37,282 bases of DNA from Dysgonamonadaceae bacterium (GTDB lineage: Bacteria; Bacteroidota; Bacteroidia; Bacteroidales; Azobacteroidaceae), in the NCBI GenBank assembly GCA_031257875.1, contig JAIRNV010000193.1:1-37282 (forward strand). The letters run 5' to 3'. Both the position numbers and the translations under genes were made by a program. Shown in pieces: positions 1,998 to 32,344 of the stretch. The number at the start of each line of letters is the position of its first letter. The first letter of the stretch is position 1. The notes below the pieces were generated by a model, which was not told where the DNA came from, ran no database searches, and worked only from the letters and a program-made list of their open reading frames with translations.

Positions 1998-2007
1998 ATT
2001 TCAAAAT

Positions 2008-3006: not shown

Positions 3007-3025
3007 TGTTAATTTTTTATGAATG

Positions 3026-3757: not shown

Positions 3758-3836
3758 TGTTTTTAATAATAGTCGTTATGATTTATACATAGTGTATTGG
3801 TTGTAAAGTTAACAACCTTTACCACCTTTGTCGGGA

Positions 3837-3844: not shown

Positions 3845-3902
3845 GCATATTTTCAGAAATTTTTAGTACCCGTGCACGATAAAATTTCTTTTCGAAATCC
3901 AT

Positions 3903-3962: not shown

Positions 3963-3984
3963 CATGATTAATGAAAAAGCATTC

Positions 3985-9000: not shown

Positions 9001-9417
9001 TCATTTATCATTAAAAATAAAGTCTAATTTTTGTTTGCGATAATGGTGAAACTTTGTATCGCTGCTGATTAAAGGGATTTGTTCGGTAATGGCTTGTGCG
9101 ATAATCATGCGGTCGAACGGATCACCATGCCCTTCTGTCGGAACTATACCGGCAAACGTAATCAAATGTTCTTTTTGTACGTATTTAACTGTACAAAATA
9201 ATTCGTTCTCAATGTAGTTAAAAACATCAAATGGTTTTTGCCATTGTTTTACGTTCAATTTATTGTCCCGTATAAGCATATAAATTTCCTGTATGCTTAT
9301 TGCGCTAACATACATCAGGTTATCTGTATCTTCAATGATATTCCGCACATCTTTTGAGATAGCAGCGGGAGTGCCAATGAACCGAATAAGAATATTTGTA
9401 TCTAATAAATATCTCAT
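9001..9417 (-). CDS. PIN-domain toxin, VapC-like
   Basis: A 138-residue PIN-domain protein, typical VapC length. It begins MRYLLDTNILIRF with the first acidic residue of the PIN site (Asp6). Further acidic positions appear in the conserved stretches ISIQEIYML (Glu) and HGDPFDRMIIAQA (Asp), and the C-terminus has LISSDTKFHHY. VapC toxins are metal-dependent RNases that cleave tRNA or rRNA. I chose the ATG at 9417, one base after the stop of the upstream antitoxin-like gene, instead of an upstream start inside that gene. The pair is translationally linked. A deleted second copy lies at 9650-9698. Confidence 0.85.
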   Translation of the reverse strand: MRYLLDTNILIRFIGTPAAISKDVRNIIEDTDNLMYVSAISIQEIYMLIRDNKLNVKQWQKPFDVFNYIENELFCTVKYVQKEHLITFAGIVPTEGHGDPFDRMIIAQAITEQIPLISSDTKFHHYRKQKLDFIFNDK

Positions 9418-9418
9418 T

Positions 9419-9580
9419 TTAATTATATAAAATAGACCGGTCATTAATAACTACACCTTTTAATCCGAGAGGATGTTTACGCATCCATTCTCCTGCAGGT
9501 GACAATTTTTTAGGTTGTGCCGCCATTTCTTTTTTCGTTTTGTCTGTTGCTTTCGTTTTTTTTACTGTCTCCATCATCAT
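9419..9580 (-). CDS. Small antitoxin-like protein paired with the PIN toxin
   Basis: A 53-residue basic protein. It begins with three consecutive ATG codons (9580, 9577, 9574), continues ETVKKTKATDKTKKEMAAQ, and ends KLSPAGEWMRKHPLGLKGVV plus a short tail. Short proteins of this kind often precede PIN toxins in Bacteroidota. Antitoxin function is inferred from size and from the one-base gap to the VapC-like gene. The N-terminal Lys/Thr leader is shared with the orphan copy at 9701 and with the RhuM gene at 8619. No clear DNA-binding fold is visible. Confidence 0.6.
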   Translation of the reverse strand: MMMETVKKTKATDKTKKEMAAQPKKLSPAGEWMRKHPLGLKGVVINDRSILYN

Positions 9581-17217: not shown

Positions 17218-18678
17218 ATGAAATCCGTCAACTGGAAATTTGTATTTCGCGTTACCGGATTAACGCTAATGCTGGAATCGGTTTTCATGTTCTTCACGGC
17301 AGGCGTATCCTTTTATCTGAAAGAAGCGGTTGAAATTTTCATTCTTTCGGGAATTATCACGCTATCGGCAGGATGGGCGCTTTTCTTTTTTTCCGACTTC
17401 AAAACCAAATTTAAAATCGTTGAAAAAAAAGAAAGCTGCCTCAGTGTAACTTTTGCATGGATATCGTTTGCCGTTTTCGGCGCATTGCCTTTCCTTTTAA
17501 GCGGTCAGACGGGTTCTTTCACCGACGCCGTTTTCGAATCGACTTCGGGAATAACGACCACCGGCGCCTCCATCCTCAACAACGTCGAATCCCTGCCTGC
17601 AAGCCTCCTCTTCTGGCGCAGCCTGATACAATGGATGGGCGGACTTGGGATAATTGTGTTTTCGCTGGCGCTGTTTCCTTTGATGGGCGGAGGCGCCGCT
17701 TATTTGTTCGACTCGGAAACGACGGGACTTACCCACGACAAATTCCGTCCGCGCGTCAATGAAATGGCTCTGCGGCTGTTGCTTATTTATGTATCTCTCA
17801 CCGGCGTGATGATTGTCCTTTTGATAGCAGGCGCGATGAGCGCTTTTGATGCGGTTTGCCATGCTTTTTCCACCATTTCAACCGGTGGATTTTCGTCCAA
17901 AGGGTCAAATCTCGCTTACTGGGACTCTGTTTATATAGAAACCGTTACCTGTGTCTTCATGCTGACCGGCGCCACCAATTTTGCGCTGCTTTATTTTTTG
18001 TTTAAGGGAAAAATCAAAAAGTTTTTTTGCGATGAAGAATTGCGGTGGTTTGCGGCTATCATTTTAGTGACGGGTTCTTTTATAGCCGTTTGTTTGCAGT
18101 GGGGACGGGAATGGACGCATATAGCCGATTCGGTTCGCATCGCTTTTTTCCGGGTCATTTCCGTCATTACCGGCACGGGGTTTTCAACGGGAGATTCGGT
18201 TCAATGGAGTCCGGCCTACTGGATTCCGTTTATGTTTCTGATGTTTGTATGCGGTTGCGCCGGCTCGACCAGCGGCGGGATGAAAGTCATACGCGTAGTT
18301 GTTCTGATAAAAAACACATTCCACGAATTTAAGCGCATGACGCATCCCCGCGCTGTTATTCCTGTGCGCATCAACGGGGAAACCCTGTCTTTCGAGACTG
18401 TTCAGCGCCTGCTGGCATTCGCTTTTCTTTATCTTTTGATTATTTTTGTCAGTTGGGGAATACTGGTTTGTTCGGGAATGACTTTTATGGAAGCCCTGGT
18501 TGCGGCATTGTCATCGCTTGGCAATACGGGGCTTGGCTTTGCGGAAACCGGACCTTCCGGCAGTTTTGCCGGTATATCGGCATTTGCCAAATGGTATATG
18601 GCTTTTCTGATGGTTGTGGGGCGTGTGGAAATTTTTACGGTACTGATTCTGTTTATACCGGCATTTTGGAAAAATTAA
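17218..18678 (+). CDS. trkH: TrkH-family potassium uptake protein
   Basis: This 486-residue inner-membrane protein has about ten hydrophobic helices and the four pore loops of the Trk/Ktr superfamily: SGITTTGASIL, FSTISTGGFSSKG, ITGTGFSTGD and SSLGNTGLGF. Each carries the selectivity-filter glycine. TrkH works with the NAD-binding regulator TrkA, which is not in this window. The final basic/aromatic segment VVGRVEIFTVLILF is typical. The gap after sod contains a duplicated CTCGTAACT. Its stop is two bases from the stop of the convergent T9SS gene, with no clear terminator between them. Confidence 0.93.
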   Translation: MKSVNWKFVFRVTGLTLMLESVFMFFTAGVSFYLKEAVEIFILSGIITLSAGWALFFFSDFKTKFKIVEKKESCLSVTFAWISFAVFGALPFLLSGQTGSFTDAVFESTSGITTTGASILNNVESLPASLLFWRSLIQWMGGLGIIVFSLALFPLMGGGAAYLFDSETTGLTHDKFRPRVNEMALRLLLIYVSLTGVMIVLLIAGAMSAFDAVCHAFSTISTGGFSSKGSNLAYWDSVYIETVTCVFMLTGATNFALLYFLFKGKIKKFFCDEELRWFAAIILVTGSFIAVCLQWGREWTHIADSVRIAFFRVISVITGTGFSTGDSVQWSPAYWIPFMFLMFVCGCAGSTSGGMKVIRVVVLIKNTFHEFKRMTHPRAVIPVRINGETLSFETVQRLLAFAFLYLLIIFVSWGILVCSGMTFMEALVAALSSLGNTGLGFAETGPSGSFAGISAFAKWYMAFLMVVGRVEIFTVLILFIPAFWKN

Positions 18679-19227: not shown

Positions 19228-19235
19228 TACCTTTG
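19228..19235 (+). promoter_or_regulatory. -7 box (TACCTTTG) for the first biosynthetic unit
   Basis: TACCTTTG matches TAnnTTTG, 52 bases before the ATG at 19288. It marks the left edge of the polyketide-like cluster. Confidence 0.55.
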
Positions 19236-19287
19236 CCAACAGAAATGTCAAACATGGCATTAAAGCAAAAAGATTGATTTGATATTT

Positions 19288-20268
19288 ATGGCACAAATAA
19301 TATTTTTAACCGGTTCTACCGGTTTTATCGGCTACAATATTGCCCGCCAGCTTTTGAAAACAGGTTATACGGTACGAATGCTTACAAGAACTGATAATCA
19401 TATACTGGTACATGAAAATGCCGAATATGTATCCGGGGATATACGCAATTACGAAGATGTTCGAAAATCAATGAAAGGTTGTAATATTGTAATCCATACG
19501 GCAGGGCTGTTTACATTTGATACCTCTTTACGAAACGATATATACGAAACGAATGTGACCGGCACGGAGAATATCTGTAAGGCCGTAGTAGAAAACAAAC
19601 CGGAAAGATTTATTTATACCAGCTCCGCAGCCACGATCGGTAAAGATAAAGATTACAAATGTCTTTCAAATGAGAATACCAAATTTAATTTATGGAAAAT
19701 CAGCAGTCACTACAAAAAATCGAAAGTGCTGGCAGAAGAAATTGTATTGCGGTATTATATGGAATACGCTATTCCGGTGGTCATACTTAATCCGTCGTTA
19801 CCATTAGGGGCGTATGACTTCAAACCTACTTCTACGGGAATGATGATAAAATCTTTCCTCAATTCCTCAATGAAAATGTATATAAACGGGGGCTTTAATT
19901 TTGTCCATGTCAATGATGTTGCCAAAGCCCACATTTTAGCGCTTCAAAGAGGCAGGACAGGGCAAAAATATATTATTGGAAACGAAAATCTCCTGCTGAA
20001 AGAATTTTATCAAAAACTTCTAAAGTACAAACCGGATACGAAAATCAAACAGGTTCCGTATTTTGTGGCATTACTGGGCGCCTGGGTAGCTGTAATGTTC
20101 GGATTTTTAACGAAAAAACAGCCTGCCGTAACACCCCGGGGAGTACAGTTGTCCGGAAAGAAAATGTTTTATGACACGTCTAAATCGCAAGAAGAATTAG
20201 GCATCAAATATACTTCTGTTGATGAAGCCATTAAGGATTCCGTGAACTGGTTTATGAACAACAAATGA
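19288..20268 (+). CDS. Extended SDR, HpnA/3beta-HSD-like NAD(P)-dependent epimerase-reductase
   Basis: A 326-residue extended short-chain dehydrogenase. The Rossmann motif GSTGFIG is near residue 9, IHTAG and YTSSAATIG follow, and the catalytic Tyr-Lys pair is in SHYKKSK. LNPSLPLGAYDFKPTSTG and FNFVHVNDVAKAHILALQRG closely follow the pattern of HpnA, the hopanoid-associated dehydrogenase, and of 3beta-HSD-type enzymes. I use the ATG at 19288; an upstream TTG at 19279 is less likely. It is cotranscribed with the SRPBCC gene eight bases downstream. In this context it is a candidate ketoreductase or carbinol oxidoreductase acting on the polyketide product; that role is inferred. Confidence 0.85.
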   Translation: MAQIIFLTGSTGFIGYNIARQLLKTGYTVRMLTRTDNHILVHENAEYVSGDIRNYEDVRKSMKGCNIVIHTAGLFTFDTSLRNDIYETNVTGTENICKAVVENKPERFIYTSSAATIGKDKDYKCLSNENTKFNLWKISSHYKKSKVLAEEIVLRYYMEYAIPVVILNPSLPLGAYDFKPTSTGMMIKSFLNSSMKMYINGGFNFVHVNDVAKAHILALQRGRTGQKYIIGNENLLLKEFYQKLLKYKPDTKIKQVPYFVALLGAWVAVMFGFLTKKQPAVTPRGVQLSGKKMFYDTSKSQEELGIKYTSVDEAIKDSVNWFMNNK

Positions 20269-20275
20269 TAATGGC

Positions 20276-20788
20276 ATGGACATAAAGGATACGGTTAAAC
20301 AACTCAGGCAAGACTCGAAAGATTACTTTCTGTTACACGATATGCCATTGCCGATATCGGCTGAGAAGATGTTCAATATCATGTGTAAGCCGGAAAATTG
20401 GCAGGTGGTGAACTTTCCGATAATCAAAAAGGTCGAAGTTATTGAATCAAAAGATAATTCCGTCTCGTTTTATCTTTATGAAAAACTGCTTGGAAAATAT
20501 TATAAATCGAAAATAATCCTGACTTACAATATCAATGATTTACGCATTGAATATTGCCATGAAAAGCCAACGTTTCCTTTTGTAAGCAAAATGGCCTCCG
20601 TATGGTATTTTGTTAACGAGGATGCCTATATCTCCCACTTCTATATAATCAGGAATTTTACTGTAAAGAACGTGTTTATAAAGTTTTTTTTCCTGTTTAT
20701 TAAAAAAATCATTGACAAACATGTGGCCGATTATCATAAACAGTTGATTGCAGTAACAAAAAACCTCTCATTAAGTAATGCAAAATAA
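20276..20788 (+). CDS. SRPBCC (START/Bet v1-fold) protein 1, cyclase/aromatase-like
   Basis: A 170-residue protein of the polyketide cyclase/dehydrase type. The pattern PISAEKMFNIMCKPENWQVV followed by VEVIE and alternating beta strands is the usual start of SRPBCC domains. A hydrophobic helix (VFIKFFFLFIKKIIDK, about residues 133-148) ends the domain and may contact the membrane. Two further SRPBCC genes lie downstream at 24987 and 25441. This one belongs to the transcription unit of the SDR and is separated from the ketosynthase operon by a hairpin and a new promoter. The catalytic role and substrate are unknown; the fold can also be a lipid carrier. Confidence 0.7.
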   Translation: MDIKDTVKQLRQDSKDYFLLHDMPLPISAEKMFNIMCKPENWQVVNFPIIKKVEVIESKDNSVSFYLYEKLLGKYYKSKIILTYNINDLRIEYCHEKPTFPFVSKMASVWYFVNEDAYISHFYIIRNFTVKNVFIKFFFLFIKKIIDKHVADYHKQLIAVTKNLSLSNAK

Positions 20789-20836
20789 ACAGGATATAAC
20801 AGTTATAAATTTTCTTTTCGTGTTACTCCGTGAAAA

Positions 20837-20890
20837 CAACTCCGAGAAACTCCGTGTTAAAATAATTGAACACAGAGTTTCTCGGAGTTG
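20837..20890. terminator. Strong hairpin between the two biosynthetic units
   Basis: The arms CAACTCCGAGAAACTCCGTG plus TT (20837-20858) and its complement (20869-20890) pair at 21 of 22 positions across a ten-base AT-rich loop. No long T-run follows, so it may be a REP-type element or a processing/termination site instead of a classic intrinsic terminator. It lies after the SRPBCC stop and before the ketosynthase promoter. Confidence 0.6.
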
Positions 20891-20931
20891 ATCGCTGCAT
20901 GTTATTTATTTTTTATCTCTAAATACATATA

Positions 20932-20939
20932 TATGTTTG
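20932..20939 (+). promoter_or_regulatory. -7 box (TATGTTTG) for the ketosynthase operon
   Basis: TATGTTTG matches TAnnTTTG, 21 bases before the ATG at 20961. It starts a second transcription unit after the hairpin. Confidence 0.55.
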
Positions 20940-20960
20940 ATTGAATATAAAACAGGCATT

Positions 20961-22208
20961 ATGAAGAAAAGAGTTGTGATTACAGGCATGGGAGCTGTTT
21001 CCCCTTTCGGTGTAGGGGTGCAGACATTTTGGAATAATTTAATTCAGGGGAAAAGTAAAATTGAATTGCTTAACATTGGTTTGGACAAAGAAATATATAC
21101 GCCTTACGGGGCTTTATTGAAGAATTTCAATTTTGCGGATCATTTTGTGCAGGCCGACCGGTATGCTCCCTATCTTGACCGGGCAATGCAATTCGTATTG
21201 ACGGCAACACACGAGGCATGTGAACAGGCCGGCTTATTCAAAGATACCGAACGCATTAGTCGTGACAGGGTCGGCGTGTATGTTGGAACAACAACAGCCG
21301 GACATGTTTCCGCATATAACCAGGCGCAAAAGTTATATAACGAAGGCGAGAAGTTTTCCACACACAATCTGTTTCAGTGCACACCCGGCGTATGGCCTAT
21401 GATTATAGGTAAATTCATTCATGCCAACGGCCCGATGAAATCATACTGTATCAGTTGCAGTGCAGGCGGTGAAAGCATAGGAAACGCATTCCGCGATATT
21501 CGCGACGGTATTGCCGATGTAATCGTAACCGGTGGCGGCGATGCTCCCATCTCGAAAATTAATTATCTCAGTTTCTACCTTATAAAATCCACATCAAGAT
21601 GGAAAGGCAATCCTTCGGAAGCGTGCCAGCCATACTCCAAAAACAGACCGGGAATGGTGTTCGGAGAAGGAGCCGGAATGCTGGTACTGGAATCCTATGA
21701 ACATGCTGTGCAAAGAGGTACGAAGATACTCGGCGAGATTGTCAATTATGCAGCCAATACAGACGGTTTTCACATAGTAGCTCCCGATCCCGAAGCTGTC
21801 AGGTATGGAGATACGATTACCGCGGTGTTTAAAGAGGCCGGCCTGCAGCCAGGGGATATCGGCTATATCAGTTGCCACGGAACAGGTACATATAGGAATG
21901 ATGCGGCGGAAACCAAAGCAATTAAAAGATCACTTGGCAAACATGCTCACAGGATAAAATTAAGCAGCATAAAAAGTATGCTGGGGCATGCTTTCGGCGG
22001 ATCGACAGCCCTTGAACTCATATCATTGACAAAATCTCTAAAGGAAGGCGTCGCGCCGCCAACAATAAATTACAAGGAATTTGATCCCGAGTGTGATTTG
22101 GACTGCGTGCCTAATCAGTGTGCAAAAATTGACACGGATTATGGGATTAAAATAGCAACAGGATTTGGAGGATCAAACAATGCTTTACTGCTCAAAAGAG
22201 TCAAATAA
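20961..22208 (+). CDS. Beta-ketoacyl synthase with complete active site (KS-alpha-like)
   Basis: A 415-residue condensing enzyme of FabF/type II PKS length. It starts MKKRVVITGMGAVSPFG. The nucleophile is Cys166 in SYCISCSAGGES, the two histidines are His306 in SCHGTGTYRNDAAE and His343 in KSMLGHAFGG, and Lys338 is present. This is the full Cys-His-His-Lys set, at nearly the FabF positions. Such enzymes perform decarboxylative condensation of malonyl-ACP with an acyl chain. I chose the ATG at 20961; an in-frame TTG at 20937 overlaps the -7 box. It is followed four bases later by a degenerate ketosynthase, the arrangement seen for KS-alpha and chain-length factor. It is unlikely to be the housekeeping FabF, given that partner and the cyclase genes. 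Confidence 0.9.
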   Translation: MKKRVVITGMGAVSPFGVGVQTFWNNLIQGKSKIELLNIGLDKEIYTPYGALLKNFNFADHFVQADRYAPYLDRAMQFVLTATHEACEQAGLFKDTERISRDRVGVYVGTTTAGHVSAYNQAQKLYNEGEKFSTHNLFQCTPGVWPMIIGKFIHANGPMKSYCISCSAGGESIGNAFRDIRDGIADVIVTGGGDAPISKINYLSFYLIKSTSRWKGNPSEACQPYSKNRPGMVFGEGAGMLVLESYEHAVQRGTKILGEIVNYAANTDGFHIVAPDPEAVRYGDTITAVFKEAGLQPGDIGYISCHGTGTYRNDAAETKAIKRSLGKHAHRIKLSSIKSMLGHAFGGSTALELISLTKSLKEGVAPPTINYKEFDPECDLDCVPNQCAKIDTDYGIKIATGFGGSNNALLLKRVK

Positions 22209-22212
22209 TGCC

Positions 22213-23388
22213 ATGAATGTCAAAATAGAAGGATTTGGAATCGTATCACCTATAGGGGATAAAAACAAAATATGGGAACATATATGTGAAAATGAGTCTC
22301 CTGAATGTGAAATCATTCATCAGAACGGGATTAACAAGTGCGTGTCTCCTATAGACACGGGAAATAATAATATAGACCCCAAATTTTTCCGCCGGATGGA
22401 CAAACAGGTGGTTTATGAGTTGATGGCTGGAAATGAAGCGGTAAACGGGAGTGAGTCGTACCTGTCTTCCCTCGACAGGGAAAAGATTGGTGTTTTTACA
22501 GGCAGTTTGTTTGCACAGTTGCAGTTTGGCATGGATCAGATAAGGGCATTGATCAGTTCCGGCAACAAAAACGAAATATCCATGTATACGGGTGTATCAT
22601 TTTATTATGGCGCTGCTTCCGGCGAGATGTCAATCCTTATTTCTTCCAAAGGAGAGAATGCATCTGTCTGTTCGGGTGCATGTTCTGGAATAGACTGTGT
22701 AATCGAAGGCGCTAAAAACATTGACCGTGGAGTGAACAGTCTTTTGCTATCTATCGGAGGAGAGAATCTGGATGAAGCGGTCATATCCGATATGATGCCG
22801 AAAAATAACGGAACAAATTCTGTTTTCATGCCAAAAAAATATTTTTATTCCAGCGGAGCTGTATGTGTATTGTTAGCATCCAATGAAAAATCCGGTTCTT
22901 CGATAGAAATAATATCTTCTCGCAATGTCAACGACAGCGAATCGCTGTTTGAATGCCGCGAAAGTTTCAGCAGTGTGCTGGAAGATTCGATTGTCAAGTG
23001 CCTGTCGGATGCGAAACTTACTGTTGACAGTATTGATTTGGTAATACCAGGAATAAATAATACGGGAGAATATGATATTGCCGAGTTATCGGTATTGGCC
23101 AAGCTGTTTCACGGTAAAAAGAATTTTATCTATATTCCTACTGCTCTAACCGGCGACATGTTGAGCGGTTCCGGCAATCTGAAAATATATGTTGCATCCA
23201 GATGTATGCTGGCAGGTATCATACCTGCTAATAATCCGGACTTTTACAACCAGCGGGTACTGGATTTATACAAAGCGTTTTTTAATTGGAAAAACAAACA
23301 GAAAGAGTTAAGATACTCTCTTGTTATCCAGCGGGATATTGTTGGCGGGCGAATCAGTCTTTTATTAATAAAAAACAACAGGATATGA
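22213..23388 (+). CDS. Degenerate ketosynthase, chain-length-factor-like (KS-beta)
   Basis: A 391-residue ketosynthase-fold protein beginning MNVKIEGFGIVSPIG. It keeps a cysteine at the nucleophile position (Cys157 in CSGACSGID). The first histidine motif reads PGINNTGEYDIAE instead of HGTGT...D..E, and the KSMLGH motif reads TALTGDMLSGSG, so both histidines and the lysine are gone and Asp315 stands where His343 is in the partner. It therefore cannot perform normal decarboxylative condensation and is best read as the heterodimer partner of the upstream KS. Classic chain-length factors instead replace the Cys by Gln. An upstream in-frame start at 22165 is possible but lies inside the previous gene. 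Its stop overlaps the next start. Confidence 0.78.
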   Translation: MNVKIEGFGIVSPIGDKNKIWEHICENESPECEIIHQNGINKCVSPIDTGNNNIDPKFFRRMDKQVVYELMAGNEAVNGSESYLSSLDREKIGVFTGSLFAQLQFGMDQIRALISSGNKNEISMYTGVSFYYGAASGEMSILISSKGENASVCSGACSGIDCVIEGAKNIDRGVNSLLLSIGGENLDEAVISDMMPKNNGTNSVFMPKKYFYSSGAVCVLLASNEKSGSSIEIISSRNVNDSESLFECRESFSSVLEDSIVKCLSDAKLTVDSIDLVIPGINNTGEYDIAELSVLAKLFHGKKNFIYIPTALTGDMLSGSGNLKIYVASRCMLAGIIPANNPDFYNQRVLDLYKAFFNWKNKQKELRYSLVIQRDIVGGRISLLLIKNNRI

Positions 23389-24206
23389 AGATTATCGACC
23401 TGAGCATACCGATAAAAAATAAAGCGATGGAACCTCAGTCTTCTACGATTAAATATGTCGGTTATAAACTGGGGGCGCTTCTGTTGGGACTGGAAGGTTT
23501 GACATATAAAGGCAAACCGCTGAAAACATTTTGGAATTACCTGCTTTTTCTATTGGGTGTAAAGAAGGTATCGGCCGGAGATTTCCCTGATGGTCTGGGT
23601 TTAAGCTGGGACAACATTAAAACAATGTCGCACAGGGGAACACATGTAGATGCGCCATCCCATTACGGGCCAACCTGTGAAGGGAAAAAGGCTAAAACAT
23701 GCTCCGAACTGCCACTGGAATGGTTTTTCAGTGATGGAGTATTGCTCGACATGGGACACAAGGGAAAGAAGGAAATAATCACGCTAAATGATATTAAGGA
23801 TGAATTAAAGGCTATTGATTACCGGATTAAGCCGTATGATATAGTTTTGATCAGGACAGGAATGGATAAGTTTTGGGATCATGATAATTATCTTTTAGAT
23901 TCTCCCGGATTAGCGCCCGAAGGCGTTGAGTGGATAATAAATCAGGGAGTGAAAGTGATAGGAATAGACAGTTACAGTTTGGATTTACCGGCGTCCGTTA
24001 TGGTTAATTCCTATTTAAGGGATAGAAACAAACAGCACTTATGGCCAACACACATGTTGGGACGTAAATATGAATATTGCCATATCGAGAAACTGGCAAA
24101 TCTCGACAAACTTCCTGCAAGAAAAGGTTTCACTGTATGTTCATTTCCGGTGCACATTGAAAACGCAAGCGCCGGATGGTGCCGCACGGTAGCAATTTTT
24201 AACTGA
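23385..24206 (+). CDS. Cyclase-family protein (PF04199, kynurenine formamidase-like)
   Basis: A 273-residue protein. The family signature HxGTHxDxPxH is complete as HRGTHVDAPSH at residues 83-93, a metal-binding active site. It begins MKIIDLSIPIKN and also shows DIVLIRTGMDKFW and LAPEGVEWIINQGVKVIGID. PF04199 members include kynurenine formamidase (amide hydrolysis) and proteins of antibiotic clusters that gave the family its cyclase name. The start overlaps the stop of the KS-beta gene (ATGA), so they are translationally coupled. Together with the KS pair, a role in cyclising, hydrolysing or releasing the polyketide is plausible. No tryptophan-degradation genes are nearby. Confidence 0.85.
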   Translation: MKIIDLSIPIKNKAMEPQSSTIKYVGYKLGALLLGLEGLTYKGKPLKTFWNYLLFLLGVKKVSAGDFPDGLGLSWDNIKTMSHRGTHVDAPSHYGPTCEGKKAKTCSELPLEWFFSDGVLLDMGHKGKKEIITLNDIKDELKAIDYRIKPYDIVLIRTGMDKFWDHDNYLLDSPGLAPEGVEWIINQGVKVIGIDSYSLDLPASVMVNSYLRDRNKQHLWPTHMLGRKYEYCHIEKLANLDKLPARKGFTVCSFPVHIENASAGWCRTVAIFN

Positions 24207-24222
24207 CTAAAAAACATATTCA

Positions 24223-24990
24223 ATGGACAATAAAGTTTTTTTGCAAAAGGTTGTTTTCAACAACAAAACAAGTAACAAAGTACTGTTTTACATAATAACA
24301 GTCTGTTTTCTAACTGTAGCAGGTACATTTTTTTATTTGGTAGACCCTGTCAGTCCGTTTGCACCGGTAATTTCTCAATTCATTATTGTTTTACTGGCTT
24401 TAGTGGGGCTTGGCGGTTTTTACACATCCAAGAAAAAACTGCTGGTCAAAAATTCAAATACTGCCGCTTATCGTAAAGCATTCTTCCGGTTTCATGTAAC
24501 TTTTATTCCTTTTGTATACATGGGAACAATACACAGCTATTTTGTCTGTCAGCCTCCTTTGGTTGATAATCCGTGGTTTAATCTGCGTTACATATTCGCG
24601 GCATACCTGATATTAACCGGTATCACCTTGCATATCCGCGCCCGCAAAATATTTGGAACAGATAATCTGTTTATGTATTACGTCTATCATCCCGATGAAA
24701 ATAAGATGATTGAATCAATCATTCACGGTATCATCCGGCACCCTGTTTATTCGGCGATGAATCGGATTGCCTGGGCTGGTGCGTTTTTTAGCGGTTCATG
24801 GGTCTCGTTTATACTGGCATTCCTTTTTACATGCAATCAGGCAGGCTGGCTGGTTTTTTATGAAGAACCCGAACTCGTTAAACGTTTTGGAAATAGTTAT
24901 GTTGACTTTAAAAAGAGAACTCCTGCGCTTTATCCAAAATTAAGCAGATATGCCGACTTTATTAAATTTTTATCGGGAAAAGTAAAATGA
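24223..24990 (+). CDS. ICMT/PEMT-like integral-membrane methyltransferase
   Basis: A 255-residue protein with about five or six membrane helices (from residue 22 onward: FYIITVCFLTVAGTFFYLV, VISQFIIVLLALVGLGGFY and others). The C-terminal half carries GIIRHPVYSAMN and then EEPELVKRFGNSYVDFKKRT followed by PALYP. This is the RHPxY ... EExxLxxxFGxxYxxYxxxxPxxxP signature of the isoprenylcysteine/phospholipid methyltransferase superfamily, where these segments bind S-adenosylmethionine. In the cluster it may O- or C-methylate a lipophilic intermediate at the membrane. It overlaps the next gene by four bases. Non-methyltransferase members of the superfamily exist, so activity is not certain. Confidence 0.78.
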   Translation: MDNKVFLQKVVFNNKTSNKVLFYIITVCFLTVAGTFFYLVDPVSPFAPVISQFIIVLLALVGLGGFYTSKKKLLVKNSNTAAYRKAFFRFHVTFIPFVYMGTIHSYFVCQPPLVDNPWFNLRYIFAAYLILTGITLHIRARKIFGTDNLFMYYVYHPDENKMIESIIHGIIRHPVYSAMNRIAWAGAFFSGSWVSFILAFLFTCNQAGWLVFYEEPELVKRFGNSYVDFKKRTPALYPKLSRYADFIKFLSGKVK

Positions 24991-25448
24991 TGCTGGTTAA
25001 AGTTGTCAATAAGCAAAGGATCAATGCTTCGGTAGAAAAAACGCTGGAAGCAATACTGGACTGTGAGAAATGGCCGGTATTTATCCCTGCGGTAAAGAAG
25101 ATAGAGTTTCTGGAGAAAGAAGGGAACTATGCCAAAAGAATTTTACACAGCGAGATCAACGGTGTTTTGGCTAAAATGGTTACCGAAACCAATTATAAAC
25201 CCGCTGAAAACGAAGTGGAATACAATCAGATTAAAACGCCATGGCCGTTAGTAAGTAACAAGGGGGTCTGGAAAGTAAATGAAATCTCCGGCGGGCAGGT
25301 TGAATTGTTATTAACTCATGTATTCAAAGTTAAATACTGTATTTTAGGGTATATTTTCGGACTACTGGTTATTGGTCCCTTTTTCATATATGCCCACAAT
25401 AAAAAAGACCTGCGACTTTATAAAAAATATATAGAAGGAAATGTTTAA
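24987..25448 (+). CDS. SRPBCC protein 2, aromatase/cyclase-like
   Basis: A 153-residue SRPBCC-fold protein. INASVEKTLEAILDCEKWPVFIPAVKKIEFLEKEGN follows the pattern of actinobacterial aromatase/cyclase domains (helix, then W-P-x-(F/L)-x-P and a beta strand), and LVSNKGVWKVNEISGG fits the later strands. A strongly hydrophobic segment (residues about 117-137, YCILGYIFGLLVIGPFFIYA) near the end could anchor it in the membrane, which is unusual for soluble aromatases. It overlaps both neighbours (four and eight bases), indicating tight coupling in one operon. Confidence 0.72.
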   Translation: MMLVKVVNKQRINASVEKTLEAILDCEKWPVFIPAVKKIEFLEKEGNYAKRILHSEINGVLAKMVTETNYKPAENEVEYNQIKTPWPLVSNKGVWKVNEISGGQVELLLTHVFKVKYCILGYIFGLLVIGPFFIYAHNKKDLRLYKKYIEGNV

Positions 25449-25908
25449 GGTTCAAATTCATATCTGTTTAAATGCCGGTTCTGCCGACATATACAGTATC
25501 CTTACAAATATACAGGCTTATCCTGCTATTTTTCCTTTCTATATAGAAACAAGAGAGATTGATAGAAATATATGGTCTGTTAAGGCTCGGATGAATAAAG
25601 GTTTTTTTTCGGAGAAAAAAGGAGAACTCTACGAATGGAAGACTAAGTTACAGTCGGATGCTCAAAAGCTTACCATAAGAACGGAAGAACTCGGTCCAAA
25701 ATTCCCTTTGAAACGGCTGGAAGCAACGTGGGAAATATCGGTTTCTGGGGAATATACAAAAATAATGTTTACTCATGAGTTTGAAATAATTAATTTTGCA
25801 TTCACTAAATACATTTTGTATCCAATCGTTTCTTTTATTATAAAAAAGAACTCAAGGAAACTGCTGGATAAACTAATCTATTACCATAATAATTATCGGA
25901 ATGATTGA
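25441..25908 (+). CDS. SRPBCC protein 3, aromatase/cyclase-like
   Basis: A 155-residue protein with an SRPBCC start (IHICLNAGSADIYSILTNIQAYPAIFPFY) and a run of alternating strands through TWEISVSGEYTKIMFTHEFEI. The C-terminal region (FTKYILYPIVSFIIKKNSRK) is hydrophobic to amphipathic, as in the two other SRPBCC proteins of the cluster. Paired aromatase/cyclase proteins are typical of type II polyketide pathways. It overlaps the start of the truncated TetR gene by eight bases, so the regulator used to be the next gene of this operon. Confidence 0.68.
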   Translation: MFKVQIHICLNAGSADIYSILTNIQAYPAIFPFYIETREIDRNIWSVKARMNKGFFSEKKGELYEWKTKLQSDAQKLTIRTEELGPKFPLKRLEATWEISVSGEYTKIMFTHEFEIINFAFTKYILYPIVSFIIKKNSRKLLDKLIYYHNNYRND

Positions 25909-26026
25909 AAAAAATCAAAACACGGAACAGGTCATACTGCAAGTAGCCAAAGATGTTTTCATTGAAAAAGGATATGCTGCGGGTAAATACGTACTTATTG
26001 ATCGGCCTTTACGGACGGCTGCGTAA
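25901..26026 (+). pseudogene. TetR-family regulator, truncated after the first helix
   Basis: The frame reads MIEKNQNTEQVILQVAKDVF and IEKGYAAGKY, then stops 11 residues later, 41 in all. The first 27 residues match the first helix of TetR DNA-binding domains (xxILxVAxxxFxxKGYAxT). The helix-turn-helix and the whole ligand-binding domain are missing. The stop lies inside a perfect 31-bp palindrome, so the gene was probably cut by an insertion or deletion there. An intact copy would likely have controlled the exporter, as TetR genes often precede this pump type. Confidence 0.75.
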
Positions 26027-26051
26027 CATCGGTTAATAACCGATGTTACGC
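26021..26051. repeat. Perfect 31-bp palindrome at the tetR break
   Basis: GCGTAACATCGGTTA and its exact complement TAACCGATGTTACGC are separated by one A. A related half (GTTACGCACCGGTTAATAA) lies at 32407-32425, just beyond the other end of the exporter operon. Confidence 0.9.
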
Positions 26052-26119
26052 ATCACGCAATGATTGGCAAAACCCGACGCCTGTGAATAACAAGAGTTAT
26101 TAATGTAACAAGAATAGAT

Positions 26120-27388
26120 ATGAGAAGAGTAATAACGATTTTTTTTATTTTTGCCGGATTTTGTTCCGAAAATTATGGACAGCAAACACTGGACGAATGC
26201 CAGCGGATGGCGCGTGAGAATTATCCTTTGGTCAGCCAGCTCGAACTGATAGAAAATTCGAGAGAACTGAACCTCTCCAATGCGGCGCGGTCATGGTTGC
26301 CGCAATTCAGCATTACGGGAATGGCCTCAATTACGGAAGGGATTCCCGATATAGCATTGCCGGGAACGGCAACGGGGAATGGCAATCATCAATTCGCCGG
26401 AATTGCCGGCCTGTCGCAGACGATATGGGACGGAGGCAATTCCAAAGCACAGCGCAGGATGGCCGATGCTGCCGCCGACACTGAAAGGGAATCGGTAGAA
26501 GTGGAACTGTACCAGCTCCGGGAGCGGGTCAATCAACTCTATTTCGGCGTTTTGCTTATCGACGAACAACTCCGGCAGACCAATATTCTGATGGAAACGC
26601 TCCGTTCCGGTTTTCGCCGGGCAGAAGCGTCGGTCGGGAGCGGAATAGCCTATCCGTCGGATATGGATAAAATAGCGGTGGAAATCCTTAATACGGAACA
26701 GACCCTTATCAATTTGCAGGCCTGCCGCAGGGCATATTGCAGAATGCTCGGCCTGATGACAGGGCAGGACATTACATCTCAAACAACGTTCGAGAAGCCC
26801 GCAACCGTTCAACACACTGCCGCCATGCCGGTTGACCGCCCCGAACTGCGGCTTTTCGAGAGTCGGCGACAGTTGAACGACGCCCGCAATCTCGCCGTCA
26901 CCTCCTCTTATATGCCAAAGATAGGATTGCGGGGTTATGCGGTGGGTATGACGCCCGGCATCCATATCGGCGGCAACAAACTGGATTATCTGATGGTGGC
27001 TGGCATAAGCCTGTCGTGGAGTAGCAGCGGGCTATACACCAAAAACAACGAGCGCAATAAAATAAAAATAAGCAACAGGATGATCGATGCCCTGCAACAG
27101 ACTTTTCTTATGAATACCCATCTGGAGTTGAGCAGGCAGGACGGAGAGATAGAGCGTTGCCGGCAACTTATCCGCAAGGACGACGAGATAGTGCGCCTGC
27201 GCGAAAGAATAAAAAAAGCGTCGGAAACCAGATACGGGAACGGGGCCTGCACCATGACCGACCTGCTTAATGATATTAATGCGGAGCATCTTGCGCGGCA
27301 GACCAAAGTGCACCATGAAACAGAATTTCTTATGTATCTGTATCAACAGCAAACTACATCCGGTAATAACGGCCGCAAGGTTAAATAA
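26120..27388 (+). CDS. TolC-family outer-membrane efflux protein
   Basis: This 422-residue protein starts with a signal peptide (MRRVITIFFIFAGFCSENYG) and the family start QTLDECQRMARENYPLVSQL. It has the duplicated long-helix architecture of outer-membrane efflux channels: AQRRMADAAADTERESVEVELYQ in the first half and LSRQDGEIERCRQLIRKDDEIVRL in the second. It forms the outer-membrane duct for the pump encoded downstream. It begins 93 bases after the broken tetR, and a palindrome of about 100 bp separates it from the adaptor gene. Confidence 0.9.
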   Translation: MRRVITIFFIFAGFCSENYGQQTLDECQRMARENYPLVSQLELIENSRELNLSNAARSWLPQFSITGMASITEGIPDIALPGTATGNGNHQFAGIAGLSQTIWDGGNSKAQRRMADAAADTERESVEVELYQLRERVNQLYFGVLLIDEQLRQTNILMETLRSGFRRAEASVGSGIAYPSDMDKIAVEILNTEQTLINLQACRRAYCRMLGLMTGQDITSQTTFEKPATVQHTAAMPVDRPELRLFESRRQLNDARNLAVTSSYMPKIGLRGYAVGMTPGIHIGGNKLDYLMVAGISLSWSSSGLYTKNNERNKIKISNRMIDALQQTFLMNTHLELSRQDGEIERCRQLIRKDDEIVRLRERIKKASETRYGNGACTMTDLLNDINAEHLARQTKVHHETEFLMYLYQQQTTSGNNGRKVK

Positions 27389-27389
27389 T

Positions 27390-27488
27390 CGCAGCTGTCA
27401 TTGCGAGGGCGAAGCCTGAAGCAATCCAGAGTTATTTTAAATATTTCCGGATTGCTTCATTGCTTCGCAGTTCGCAATGACACTGCGA
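27390..27488. repeat. REP-like inverted repeat between tolC-like and adaptor genes
   Basis: A left arm starting TCGCAG-TGTCATTGCGA and ending GAAGCAATCC pairs with GGATTGCTTC...TCGCAATGACACTGCGA on the right, around an AT-rich centre. This CATTGCGA...GCAATCC element type is dispersed in many bacterial genomes. Confidence 0.8.
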
Positions 27489-27539
27489 CAACTTGAAAAT
27501 TCACCCGTAATAAAACAACAGTAAAAAATATAAAAAACG

Positions 27540-28436
27540 ATGAAAAAATCAGTATTCCTGATCCTTTCCCTGCTGCTTGCGGCAGGATGCAACAACAACA
27601 AACTGCAATACGACGCCGCCGGAACTTTTGAGGCGACAGAAATCCTTATTTCTTCCGAAGCGTCGGGAGTGATAAGGCAATTCAACATTGAGGAAGGGCA
27701 GGTCGTGAAGGCCGGAACACAGGTCGGCGTTATCGACACCACACAGCTTTATCTTCAAAAACTGCAACTGCTTGGTACACGGCGGTCGTTGCAGGTGAGT
27801 CGCCCTGACGTGGACAAACAAATCACGGCCACCCGTGAGGAAATAGCGCGGCTTCGGACGGAAAAAGCCCGTATTGAGAACCTTATCCGGGGCGATGCCG
27901 CCACGGGACAGCAACTTGACGAGGTTAACGCACATCTGCGGATGGCGGAAGGAAGGCTGTCGGCTCAAATAAATTTGCTGCAATCAACTGTCGGAAGCCT
28001 CGAAGAACAGAGTTCGACGGTTGATATTCAGGTGGCGCAGATAGAGGATAAACTGGCGAAATGCCGCATCGTGAATCCTGTAACCGGTACGGTGCTGAAA
28101 AAATACGCCGAAGTGTATGAGGTCAGTTCTCCCGCCCGCCCGCTCTACAGGATTGCCGATTTGGAAACCGTGTATCTGCGGGCTTATATCACTTCCGACC
28201 ATCTGACGAAAGTGCAGTCAGGCCGGCAGGTAAAGGTTTATGCCGATTACGGCGACAGGGAACGGCGGGAATACGGAGGGCGGATAGTCTGGATTTCCGA
28301 CCGGGCCGAATTTACGCCTAAAACCATACAAACCAGGAACGAAAGAGCCCATCTTGTTTATGCCGTTAAGATAGCCGTTCCCAACGACGGTTGCCTGAAA
28401 ATCGGGATGTATGGCGAGGTGGCTTTCGATCAATAA
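27540..28436 (+). CDS. HlyD-family periplasmic adaptor, lipoprotein (YbhG-like)
   Basis: A 298-residue membrane-fusion protein. The signal peptide ends in the lipobox LLAAGC (Cys at residue 19), so it is a lipoprotein. A biotinyl-lipoyl half-motif (ASGVIRQFNIEEGQVVKAGTQVGVID) is followed by a long coiled-coil hairpin (about residues 75-165), then IVNPVTGTVLKKYAEVYEVS and a beta-barrel segment. It would link the inner-membrane ABC transporter to the TolC-like channel. It is followed 11 bases later by the first ATPase gene. Confidence 0.9.
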   Translation: MKKSVFLILSLLLAAGCNNNKLQYDAAGTFEATEILISSEASGVIRQFNIEEGQVVKAGTQVGVIDTTQLYLQKLQLLGTRRSLQVSRPDVDKQITATREEIARLRTEKARIENLIRGDAATGQQLDEVNAHLRMAEGRLSAQINLLQSTVGSLEEQSSTVDIQVAQIEDKLAKCRIVNPVTGTVLKKYAEVYEVSSPARPLYRIADLETVYLRAYITSDHLTKVQSGRQVKVYADYGDRERREYGGRIVWISDRAEFTPKTIQTRNERAHLVYAVKIAVPNDGCLKIGMYGEVAFDQ

Positions 28437-28447
28437 AAGGATATGAA

Positions 28448-29317
28448 ATGATCACGGCGGAAGATTTACATAAAAACTACGGCGGAACAGAAGCCCTGAA
28501 AGGTGTTGGTTTCAAAGTAAACCGGGGAGAGATATTCGGCATTATTGGGCCTGACGGAGGGGGAAAGACCACGCTTTTCCGCATCCTTGCCACGCTTACA
28601 GGGGCGGATAGCGGCAGAGCATCTATAGGCGGGCTGGACGTTGTGCGTGATTTCGGGCAGATACGCAGGATGATCGGGTATATGCCGGGACGGTTTTCGC
28701 TCTATCCGGATTTGACGGTGGAGGAAAATCTGAATTTCTACGCTATGGTGTTCGGTACTGCGGTTGCGGATAACTACAATCTGGTAAGGGACATTTACGG
28801 ACAGATAGAGCCGTTCAGAAAGCGCAGGGCGGGTGCGTTATCCGGCGGCATGAAGCAAAAACTGGCTTTGAGTTGTGCGCTGATACACCGCCCGAAGGTG
28901 CTGATGCTCGACGAGCCGACAACCGGCGTTGATCCCGTTTCGCGCAGGGAGTTTTGGCAGATGCTGAAAAAATTGAAGGAGCAGGGAATGACGATACTCG
29001 TTTCCACGCCCTGTATGGACGAGGCTACTTTGTGCGACCGGATTGCCCTGATGCAGAACGGTGGTATACTGAGTATCGACACCCCTGAAAAGATGGTGGC
29101 CGCCTACCCCGAAAAACTGTATGCCGCCCGTTCGGGCAATAACTACCGCCTGCTCGAAACGCTGAAAGCGCGGAACGATATAAAAATGTGCTACATATCA
29201 GGGGAAAGCCTGCGTGTGATTTTCCGGACGGAAGAAACGCCGAAGATGGAGGGCATGGAGATACGCCGGATGGAGGCCACGGTCGAGGATTGTTTTATAT
29301 ATCTTATGCAACAATGA
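28448..29317 (+). CDS. ABC transporter ATPase 1 (like the N-terminal half of YbhF)
   Basis: A 289-residue nucleotide-binding subunit. Walker A is GPDGGGKTT, the signature is LSGGMKQK, and Walker B is VLMLDEPTTGVDP. Two usual residues are altered: the Q-loop reads GYMPGRFSLY (no Gln) and the switch region reads STPCMDEA (Pro for His). This suggests a regulatory or weakly hydrolysing site in a heterodimer with ATPase 2. About 70 residues after the ATPase core form a C-terminal extension. The ATG at 28448 matches the family start. The stop overlaps the next ATG. Confidence 0.9.
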   Translation: MITAEDLHKNYGGTEALKGVGFKVNRGEIFGIIGPDGGGKTTLFRILATLTGADSGRASIGGLDVVRDFGQIRRMIGYMPGRFSLYPDLTVEENLNFYAMVFGTAVADNYNLVRDIYGQIEPFRKRRAGALSGGMKQKLALSCALIHRPKVLMLDEPTTGVDPVSRREFWQMLKKLKEQGMTILVSTPCMDEATLCDRIALMQNGGILSIDTPEKMVAAYPEKLYAARSGNNYRLLETLKARNDIKMCYISGESLRVIFRTEETPKMEGMEIRRMEATVEDCFIYLMQQ

Positions 29318-30060
29318 CAAACAAAGCGATAACGGTAGAAAACATCACAAAGCGTTTCGGCGGCTTTACGGCGGTAGACGGTATTTCGTTCGGCATCGAA
29401 CGGGGCGAGATATTCGGTTTCCTCGGAGCCAACGGAGCTGGTAAAACAACCGTCATGCGGATGTTGTGCGGATTGAGCAAACCCACCTCCGGTAGCGGCA
29501 TGGTGGCAGGTTTCGACATGATGACGGAAACGGAAAGTATCAAGCGGAGCATCGGATATATGAGCCAGAAGTTTTCGCTTTACGCCGATTTGACCGTAAG
29601 GGAAAACCTGCGGCTGTTCGGGGCGATTTACGGATTGCGGGGACGGGCAATAGCGGTCAGGACGGTAAAAATGTTGCGGGAACTGGGATTTTACGCCGAA
29701 CGCAATACGATGGTAAAAGACCTGCCGCTCGGATGGCAGCAAAAACTGGCGTTTTCGACAGCTATTTTCCATTCCCCTGAAATCGTTTTTCTGGATGAGC
29801 CTACCGGCGGGGTCGATCCGCTTACACGCCGGCAGTTCTGGGAATTGATATATAAGGCCGCCGACAGTGGAATAACCGTTTTCGTTACTACACACTATAT
29901 GGACGAGGCCGAATATTGCGACCGGGTTTCGATCATGGTGGACGGACGGATAGAAGCGCTGGACACCCCGTCGAATCTTAAACGGCAGTATAATGCCGCC
30001 TCTATGGATGATGTATTTCAGCGGCTGGCACAGACGGCAAAACGAAACGATACGATATGA
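29314..30060 (+). CDS. ABC transporter ATPase 2 (like the C-terminal half of YbhF)
   Basis: A 248-residue nucleotide-binding subunit. Walker A is GANGAGKTT, the Q-loop GYMSQKFSLY is intact, Walker B is IVFLDEPTGGVDP, and the switch histidine is present in TTHYMDEAEYCD. The signature is the variant LPLGWQQKL, usual for this YbhF-type subgroup. It pairs with ATPase 1 to energise the two permeases. It overlaps both neighbours by four bases. Confidence 0.92.
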   Translation: MTNKAITVENITKRFGGFTAVDGISFGIERGEIFGFLGANGAGKTTVMRMLCGLSKPTSGSGMVAGFDMMTETESIKRSIGYMSQKFSLYADLTVRENLRLFGAIYGLRGRAIAVRTVKMLRELGFYAERNTMVKDLPLGWQQKLAFSTAIFHSPEIVFLDEPTGGVDPLTRRQFWELIYKAADSGITVFVTTHYMDEAEYCDRVSIMVDGRIEALDTPSNLKRQYNAASMDDVFQRLAQTAKRNDTI

Positions 30061-31160
30061 AACAGTTTATTTCCTTTGTACAAAAAGAGTTCCGGCACAT
30101 CTTCCGCGACAGGCGGACGATGCTGATACTGATAGGAATGCCGATCGTTCAGATTGTTCTGTTCGGTTTTGCCATCACTACCGAAGTGCGAAATATCAAC
30201 GTGGTGCTGCTCGACCCTGCCAAAGACAGGGTTACCCGGCAGATAACGGAGAAACTTGCCGCAAGCGATTATTTCAATATAGTTGGAATTATCGGCAATT
30301 CACATGAAACAGAGCGGGTTCTTCTCGACGGAACGGCCGATATGGTAGTCGCTTTCGATGAAAGGTTCGATGAGAAACTTTACCGCGAAGGCAAGGCGGC
30401 CGTACAGCTCATCGTCGACGCTACCGACCCCAATACCGCTATAACGGAAATCAATTATGCCGCGCAGATAATAAGAGAAACACAAATGGAAATGTCGGGA
30501 ATATCTCCCTCAGGACAGATTATTCCCGATATGCGAATGCTCTACAATCCGCAGATGGAAAGCGCCTATAATTTCGTTCCGGGAGTGATGGGACTTATCC
30601 TGATGCTGATATGCGCCATGATGACCTCCATATCCATTGTGCGGGAAAAGGAAACAGGAACAATGGAATTGCTGCTGGTTTCCCCCGTCAAGCCGCCGTG
30701 CATTATACTGTCGAAAGCCGTTCCCTATCTGGTTATTTCCTGTGCAAACATGATTACCATACTGCTAATGGCGGTTTTCGTTCTTCAGGTGCCATTCGCC
30801 GGGAGCGTCGCATGGATGGCTGCCATTTCGCTTCTATATATTCTGGTCTGCCTGTCACTGGGGCTGCTGATTTCCACGTTGGTGAAAACACAGGTAGCGG
30901 CAATGCTCATTTCAGGCGTCCTGCTGATGATGCCTGCGCTGCTGCTCTCCGGCATGATATATCCGGTAGAGAATATGCCGAAAATACTGGAGTCCGTTTC
31001 CAGCATCATTCCCGCACGGTGGTATATAGCTTCGGTAAAAAAACTGATGATACAGGGGCTGGAAATTTCCTGTGTATGGAAAGAATTCATCATACTCCTG
31101 TTTATGGCGGTTTTTCTTCTGGCGGTAAGTATAAAGAAATTTAAGTTAAGATTACAGTGA
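30057..31160 (+). CDS. ABC-2 type permease 1 (YbhS/YbhR-like)
   Basis: A 367-residue inner-membrane subunit. It begins with an amphipathic stretch and helix (EFRHIFRDRRTMLILIGMPIVQIVLFGF), then a large periplasmic domain (residues about 50-170). Five more helices follow, including FVPGVMGLILMLICAMMTSISIVREKETGTMELLLVSPVKP, the ABC-2 signature loop. Together with permease 2 it forms the membrane channel. It is translationally coupled to ATPase 2. Confidence 0.92.
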   Translation: MKQFISFVQKEFRHIFRDRRTMLILIGMPIVQIVLFGFAITTEVRNINVVLLDPAKDRVTRQITEKLAASDYFNIVGIIGNSHETERVLLDGTADMVVAFDERFDEKLYREGKAAVQLIVDATDPNTAITEINYAAQIIRETQMEMSGISPSGQIIPDMRMLYNPQMESAYNFVPGVMGLILMLICAMMTSISIVREKETGTMELLLVSPVKPPCIILSKAVPYLVISCANMITILLMAVFVLQVPFAGSVAWMAAISLLYILVCLSLGLLISTLVKTQVAAMLISGVLLMMPALLLSGMIYPVENMPKILESVSSIIPARWYIASVKKLMIQGLEISCVWKEFIILLFMAVFLLAVSIKKFKLRLQ

Positions 31161-31173
31161 TGTAAGGTTAATA

Positions 31174-31230
31174 AATTACGAATTACGGTAATTCGTAATT
31201 CGTAATTCGTAATTTGTAACTCGTAATTTT
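31174..31230. repeat. ATTCGTA-type heptamer repeats between the two permease genes
   Basis: The 77-base gap contains runs of AATTCGTAATTCGTAATTCG followed by variants (TTTGTAA, CTCGTAA), and an inverted partner AATTACGAATTACGG before them. The CTCGTAA unit also occurs twice between sod and trkH at 17193-17207. Confidence 0.75.
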
Positions 31231-31237
31231 TCTAATT

Positions 31238-32344
31238 ATGTTATTAAAATTTTTACTGGAAAAAGAAATTAAACAGATAAGACGCAACCCGTTTCTGCCG
31301 CGGCTTATCATCGCATATCCCGTTTTGGTTATGCTCGTGTTCCCCTGGGTTGCCAATCTCGAAGTGAAAGATATAAATCTCTGTATCGTGGATAATGATC
31401 ACAGTGTCTATTCTCAACGGTTGACAGAACAGATATCGGCATCGGAATACTTTTGTCTGTCGGGAACAGCCGCGACCTGCGACGAAGCGATGGAAAGCAT
31501 AAAGCGCAACGATTCGGACGTTATTTTAGAGATAGATGCAGGTTTCGAGAAGGATTTGGTGCGTGGGGGCAATTCGACGGTAATGATCTCGCCCAATTCG
31601 GTAAACGGTACGAAAGGAGCTTTTGCCGCCAGTTATCTCTCGCAGATACTTTCGGATTTTTCGGACGGCATCAGGGAAGAATTGCCATCTGGCGGGCCAC
31701 CGTCCGGAATAATTGAGATAAATCCTCAATACCGCTATAATCCCTGTCTGGACTACAAAACCTTTATTATCCCCGCCCTGATGGTCATACTGCTTACGGT
31801 AATATGCGGATTCCTCCCCACGCTGAACATTGTCGGGGAAAAAGAGAAGGGAACCATTGAGCAGATAAATGTAACGCCTGTAAAAAAATCCCTGTTCATC
31901 CTTTCCAAACTTATACCCTACTGGATAACAGGAATATTCATACTGACCGTATGTCTCGGTCTTGCCGCGCTGATATACGGCCTTATTCCTGCGGGAAGCC
32001 TGCTTACGGTATACCTGTTTGCGATATTGTTTGTGGTTACTTACTCCGGCCTCGGTCTGGTTGTTTCCAACTACTCGACAACCATGCAGCAGGCTATGTT
32101 CGTGATGTTTTTCTTCACGATTGTTATGTTGCTAATGAGCGGCATATTCACGCCTGTCAGAAGTATGCCCGGCTGGGCGCAGGCTATTACTTATGCCAAT
32201 CCGTTGCGGTATTTTGTGGAAGCGATGCGGGCGATTTACCTGAAAGGCAGCGGGTTTTTCGCATTGATCACACAGTTTTTTGTTCTTTTGGGAATTGCCG
32301 GCCTGTTCGGCATCTGGGCGATAATGAGTTATAAAAAGCGATAA
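31238..32344 (+). CDS. ABC-2 type permease 2 (YbhR/YbhS-like)
   Basis: A 368-residue paralogue of permease 1. It starts LEKEIKQIRRNPFLPRLIIAYPVLVMLVFPW, has a periplasmic domain with conserved NPQYRYNPCLDYKTFIIPAL, and the loop NIVGEKEKGTIEQINVTPVKK, followed by helices ending near residue 360. This is the last gene of the exporter operon and is followed by a terminator-like hairpin. The substrate is unknown; its position next to the polyketide-like genes makes their product a candidate. Confidence 0.92.
   Translation: MLLKFLLEKEIKQIRRNPFLPRLIIAYPVLVMLVFPWVANLEVKDINLCIVDNDHSVYSQRLTEQISASEYFCLSGTAATCDEAMESIKRNDSDVILEIDAGFEKDLVRGGNSTVMISPNSVNGTKGAFAASYLSQILSDFSDGIREELPSGGPPSGIIEINPQYRYNPCLDYKTFIIPALMVILLTVICGFLPTLNIVGEKEKGTIEQINVTPVKKSLFILSKLIPYWITGIFILTVCLGLAALIYGLIPAGSLLTVYLFAILFVVTYSGLGLVVSNYSTTMQQAMFVMFFFTIVMLLMSGIFTPVRSMPGWAQAITYANPLRYFVEAMRAIYLKGSGFFALITQFFVLLGIAGLFGIWAIMSYKKR

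Follow-up and report, generated by a model that had tools for sequence, protein, structure and literature searches.

Type II polyketide synthases (PKSs) of the aromatic type are known mainly from actinomycetes. Comparable gene sets lie on Bacilli plasmids: in Priestia megaterium, Lactobacillus gasseri, Apilactobacillus kunkeei, and Staphylococcus saccharolyticus, genes for the paired ketosynthases (KSs) KS-alpha and KS-beta are followed by those for an acyl carrier protein (ACP), a methyltransferase, an AMP-ligase, a cupin, a PF04199 cyclase, and an SRPBCC protein. Type II PKSs of Gram-negative bacteria were described in 2026 as largely unexplored (PMC13213394), and the 6352 pairs of KS and chain-length factor (CLF) catalogued by McBride et al. 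in 2023 come from 14 phyla, with Bacteroidetes unnamed (PMC10132072). Here we describe eight plus-strand genes at 19288-25908 of a 37,282-nucleotide stretch (contig JAIRNV010000193.1, called the window below) from a Dysgonamonadaceae bacterium. The kinship of its KS-beta-type protein, together with the gene content, gives good support to the view that this Bacteroidales genome carries a cluster resembling a type II PKS; in the open literature (subscription papers were outside the scope) no report of a Bacteroidota cluster of this kind was found. On balance, we lean toward a horizontally acquired, compact type II PKS that borrows its ACP and makes a cyclised polyketide.

The ketosynthase pair and its gene cluster

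The cluster and the repeat that divides it are as follows.

19288..20268, plus strand: HpnA-like extended short-chain dehydrogenase/reductase (SDR; P0001), probable ketoreductase/dehydrogenase; PF01370, with GxxGxxG and YxxxK seen by eye
20276..20788, plus strand: SRPBCC/START-fold protein 1 (P0002); no Pfam match, AlphaFold model resembling aromatase/cyclases
20819..20894, no strand: palindromic repeat found at about 40 places genome-wide; divides the cluster into two gene groups
20961..22208, plus strand: KS-alpha-type ketosynthase (P0003, KSa); PF00109 and PF02801, with C166, H306, K338, and H343 intact
22213..23388, plus strand: KS-beta/CLF-type ketosynthase (P0004, KSb); PF00109, N-terminal half only
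23385..24206, plus strand: PF04199 cyclase (P0005); HRGTHVDAPSHY metal-site motif at residue 83
24223..24990, plus strand: membrane PEMT/ICMT-like methyltransferase (P0006); PEMT PF04191
24987..25448, plus strand: SRPBCC protein 2 (P0007); PF10604/PF03364
25441..25908, plus strand: SRPBCC protein 3 (P0008); PF03364, AlphaFold model resembling WhiE-ORFVI, ZhuI, and TcmN

The ketosynthase pair is the part of this reading that is well supported by sequence. When KSa is aligned with KS-alpha proteins of nine type II PKSs, its four catalytic residues do not vary. As read from the alignment, KSb has A156 in place of the Cys, G280 and D315 in place of the two His, and T310 in place of the Lys; because the Cys and both His positions are substituted, it cannot be a normal condensing enzyme, as would be expected for a CLF. 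The best two PDB sequence matches of KSb are both degenerate/KS-beta chains, 6smo_C (47 bits) and 1tqy_B (actinorhodin).

Phylogeny places KSb with the chain-length factors of polyketide synthesis. Reference KS-alpha/KS-beta pairs came from Streptomyces, Pseudonocardia, and Azospirillum and from plasmids of Priestia, Apilactobacillus, Lactobacillus, and Staphylococcus; the other references were NodE, the aryl polyene ketosynthases of Escherichia coli CFT073, and FabF proteins of E. coli, Anaerolineae, and Bacteroidota, that of this genome among them. Two trees, which also contained other long degenerate ketosynthases, put KSb inside the type II PKS KS-beta clade (support 100/100 and 100/97), and it stayed there when either the actinobacterial or the Bacilli/Azospirillum KS-beta references were removed (97 each). 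As a control, another degenerate ketosynthase of the same genome lay outside the clade in the best tree, its joining the clade not being firmly rejected (p 0.07). The sister group of KSb within the clade is uncertain because its branch is very long.

KSa is placed less sharply. In the best trees, the FabF clade excludes it (support 96-97/95-98), and the genome has a separate FabF on contig C7. An earlier note on this DNA, made from the sequence alone, had listed a full-site and a degenerate ketosynthase as a type II PKS-like pair and had named ketosynthases inside housekeeping FabF as the outcome that would speak against it; KSb is borne out as KS-beta-type, and KSa lies outside sampled FabF in the best tree, yet its inclusion is not rejected by the approximately unbiased (AU) test (p 0.18).

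Coordinates, open frames, families, and fold models confirm the eight-gene content that the same note had listed (an SDR, two ketosynthases, a PF04199 protein, a methyltransferase, and three SRPBCC proteins), and all eight frames are open. The overlapping starts and stops it had described hold for three junctions: KSb/cyclase, with an ATGA overlap, methyltransferase/SRPBCC2, and SRPBCC2/SRPBCC3. Elsewhere the genes are spaced, by 7 bp between the SDR and SRPBCC1, 4 bp between KSa and KSb, and 172 bp between SRPBCC1 and KSa, where the palindromic repeat lies. TAnnTTTG boxes resembling Bacteroidetes -7 promoter elements were seen by eye 5' of the SDR gene (19228-19235) and 5' of the KSa gene (20932-20939), which suggests two transcription units.

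Tailoring proteins, carrier protein, and comparison with known systems

Families were assigned with Pfam and NCBIfam models. The SDR scores 302.8 bits against HpnA (TIGR03466), under the cut-off of 367.65, so it is HpnA-like only. The methyltransferase matches PEMT PF04191 with 41.6 bits and the cyclase matches PF04199 with 122 bits; the latter is 43% identical over its full length to the Priestia PF04199 protein and 45% identical to one adjoining a type I PKS in Crinalium. A PF04199 tree gave no resolution. Of the PF04199 neighbourhoods looked at, which were top matches and not a random sample, roughly half have nothing to do with PKS. PF04199 alone was rejected as a PKS marker, given that the two homologues in sampled Bacteroidales relatives have no ketosynthase nearby and several plasmid copies sit in other surroundings.

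P0002 (20276-20788) has no match in Pfam or NCBIfam. Its AlphaFold model, made from the three SRPBCC proteins of the window (pLDDT 73.5), matches the aromatase/cyclases ZhuI, BexL, and WhiE-ORFVI in Foldseek; because plant abscisic acid (ABA) receptors score almost equally, this match establishes a predicted fold and not a function. The top Foldseek matches of the P0008 model are a START-like protein, WhiE-ORFVI, ZhuI, and TcmN. Aromatase/cyclase-type genes are thus present, judged by PF04199, by PF03364/PF10604, and by structural matches to ZhuI, WhiE, and TcmN, with function predicted only.

The cluster genes include no ACP, malonyl transferase, phosphopantetheinyl transferase (PPTase), or ligase. 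The genome, which is 84.7% complete, carries two ACPs elsewhere, one adjoining FabF on C7 and one in a ketosynthase operon on contig C190, so the cluster would work most simply with a borrowed ACP; an ACP may also lie on a missing contig. An ACP of its own is one defining feature of a type II PKS; lacking it, the cluster is better described as a variant that would operate in type II PKS fashion than as a full member. The C190 operon (373-6304, minus strand) runs in the order ACP, FabG-like SDR, KS, short degenerate KS-like protein, FabA-like dehydratase, M50-peptidase-like protein with a PqqD-like N-terminus by eye, and a 401-amino-acid protein without a Pfam match. This operon may be a type II PKS of the highly reducing kind or a lipid-peptide hybrid.

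Put together, these parts suggest a pathway in which KSa and KSb would form a heterodimer, KSa condensing malonyl units and KSb, without catalytic residues, setting chain length. With no ACP in the cluster, the growing chain would be held on one encoded elsewhere, either the fatty-acid ACP of C7 or the C190 ACP. The SDR would reduce a ketone, at a point in the order of reactions that we can only propose, the SRPBCC proteins and the PF04199 enzyme would steer ring closure or dehydration, and the membrane methyltransferase would cap the product, giving a reduced, cyclised, and methylated polyketide. The earlier note's small pathway to a cyclised, methylated polyketide or lipid is partly borne out, by the KSb kinship and the gene content; against this, the cluster lacks an ACP, and sequence alone cannot show that the product is aromatic. 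A more specific version, in which a Bacteroidota aromatic-type PKS pairs a CLF of the canonical clade with an independently recruited FabF-like ketosynthase and borrows its ACP from fatty-acid synthesis or from the second polyketide operon, is one we offer only tentatively.

The nearest gene sets are those on the Bacilli plasmids, which share with the window adjacent KS-alpha and KS-beta, a PF04199 cyclase, and an SRPBCC protein, in keeping with the type II PKS-like content first proposed. S. haemolyticus and a Streptomyces also link PF04199 to a KS-alpha/KS-beta pair, and in 4 of the 6 PF04199-bearing KS-alpha/KS-beta clusters, an SRPBCC/polyketide-cyclase protein follows PF04199 directly. 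The plasmid clusters also encode an ACP, a cupin, an AMP-ligase, a class I methyltransferase, and in many cases a PPTase, none of which the window cluster has. The window cluster, for its part, encodes three SRPBCC proteins, an HpnA-like SDR, and a membrane methyltransferase, and its KSa lies outside the plasmid KS-alpha clade in the best tree. With actinobacterial aromatic systems (for example actinorhodin KS/CLF and three Streptomyces loci), the window cluster shares the KS-alpha/KS-beta logic, the clade of KSb, and aromatase/cyclase folds, but it belongs to another phylum, has no ACP, differs in its tailoring genes, and in the best tree has a KSa that falls outside the actinobacterial clade. 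The structure 6smo, which we take to be the Photorhabdus anthraquinone KS/CLF pair, is likewise from a Gram-negative bacterium, and no PDB sequence matches KSb better than its degenerate chain; sequence identity is low, however, and the comparison covered the ketosynthase pair only. The aryl polyene cluster of E. coli CFT073 and the C190 operon also have a ketosynthase with a degenerate partner, but they include an ACP, a dehydratase, and a FabG-type reductase that the window cluster lacks, and KSb does not group with their proteins. None of the aryl polyene/flexirubin genes (ACP, dehydratase, FabG-type ketoreductase, ligase, LolA/MMPL transport) was found among the genes at 19288-25908 with Pfam and NCBIfam, and the gene content is, as had been claimed, unlike that of aryl polyene clusters, here compared with E. 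coli CFT073.

Distribution, host genome, and borders

Neighbour conservation, on which the earlier note had partly staked its proposal, did not appear: the cluster was not found in samples of the family, order, or phylum. KSb has no orthologue among 100 relatives of the genus and family, where only FabF-level matches occur; for KSa, 395 genomes of the phylum and 393 of the order gave no match better than FabF level; and the methyltransferase has no orthologue in 295 order genomes. Three scans with single proteins or fragments and one motif scan of viral contigs gave no match. A collection-wide contig scan by motif returned only a stand-alone FabF and a distant ketosynthase; the scan detects only contigs with one of two exact motifs and has low sensitivity, its alignment consisting of KSa and three altered synthetic copies devised solely to guide motif selection. 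A KS-beta profile run over the phylum sample was swamped by FabF, so further Bacteroidota KS-beta genes may exist. The rarity of the cluster therefore holds for the sample, and uniqueness does not follow, because the collection-wide scan is motif-limited.

The cluster truly belongs to this Azobacteroides-group genome, because a 75-bp palindromic repeat that occurs at about 40 places in the genome has a copy inside it and because the region before it is syntenic with congeners; assembly contamination was rejected on the same grounds. Five congeners have TrkH (17218-18678; 76-88% identical) followed, as in the window, by the same small gene (74-85% identical). In none of the five does the cluster follow TrkH, but the contigs of three (G023, G001, and G018) end 0.4 to 2.6 kb past it; G021 and G004 have other genes downstream of TrkH where the window has the cluster. 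The host lineage is an insect-gut-associated one within the Bacteroidales and a relative of a termite-gut protist symbiont, the genus grouping including Candidatus Azobacteroides pseudotrichonymphae; in one genome of the grouping, G003, contig 1 opens with 8 kb identical to the symbiont's plasmid NC_011561. GC content at third codon positions (GC3) is 32-44% in the cluster genes versus 50-52% in SodB, TrkH, and the exporter, a difference consistent with, though no proof of, an origin outside this genome.

Downstream, the cluster is bordered by two features.

25901..26026, plus strand: TetR regulator gene remnant, homologous over about its first 29 codons; 3' border of the cluster
26120..32344, plus strand: exporter operon in the order TolC, HlyD, ABC, ABC, permease, permease; common in the genus

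In G018 and G021, an intact TetR gene precedes the exporter, whereas in the window only about 29 codons are left, beginning at 25901, where they overlap the end of the cluster's final gene. The exporter operon (TolC, HlyD, two ATPases, and two permeases) occurs at other sites in the genus without the cluster, and a cluster-exporter link by conservation was rejected for this reason. The exporter is thus not cluster-specific; next to a truncated TetR gene, it may have escaped repression and been put to use, and it may export the product, a step that is unproven. Just past the remnant, at about 26025-26055, a near-perfect inverted repeat seen by eye (taacatcggtta / taaccgatgtta) may be a terminator or a scar. 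Elsewhere in the window, 34304-35560 encodes one protein fusing a DNA methylase (N6_N4_Mtase) to an HNH endonuclease domain, and a RhuM-family gene lies near a PIN-domain gene (7714-8619 and 9001-9444).

Alternative explanations

Several observations count against an ACP-borrowing type II PKS. Beyond the missing ACP, malonyl transferase, PPTase, and ligase, KSa lies outside the canonical KS-alpha clade in the best tree (grouping with it is not rejected, AU p 0.38), and by identity it is closest to FabF (about 38-41%). KSb is highly divergent, with a branch of 4.2-4.4 and 18-24% identity to other KS-beta proteins. SRPBCC/START folds also bind lipids, plant ABA receptors score almost as high for P0002, and no second genome with the cluster was found, hence no conservation support for function. 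Some of these points would equally suit a lipid-modifying pathway, in which the pair adds one or two units to a fatty acyl chain on the fatty-acid ACP and the methyltransferase and SRPBCC lipid binders lead to a membrane lipid or pigment, not an aromatic polyketide. There, no dedicated ACP and a FabF-like KSa would be natural, PEMT-type methyltransferases and SRPBCC folds suit lipid substrates, and the SDR resembles HpnA, SdmB, and OleD, enzymes of lipid/hopanoid contexts. KSb, however, groups with polyketide CLFs, the closest relatives of the PF04199 enzyme lie in PKS clusters, and aromatase/cyclases rank first or nearly first in the SRPBCC fold comparisons, and we regard a lipid pathway as rather unlikely.

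The missing ACP, the truncated TetR gene at the border, the repeat element inserted inside, and the absence from sampled relatives would also suit a partial, non-functional transferred cluster that lost its ACP and other essentials on insertion and is now decaying; with eight open frames, kept catalytic motifs, and tight spacing, this is improbable. A still slimmer chance attaches to a single condensation with ring closure guided by a degenerate partner, as in cispentacin AmcF-AmcG, where the degenerate KS partner directs cyclisation and fatty acid synthase enzymes are recruited in trans (PMC10698177). KSa reaches 172.7 bits with the AmcF model, a weak match given the cut-off of 325 bits, but FabF models fit it far better, KSb has no NCBIfam match to any Amc protein, and no adenylating enzyme was found nearby.

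If the type II PKS reading is right, a genuine KS-alpha/KS-beta pair in an insect-gut Bacteroidales would widen the range of this antibiotic-making machinery and point to its transfer into a symbiont group. The 2023 KS-CLF catalogue, being without Bacteroidetes, leaves such a cluster type unlisted for its phylum (PMC10132072), and the eight-gene set offers a test of a type II PKS running on a borrowed ACP.

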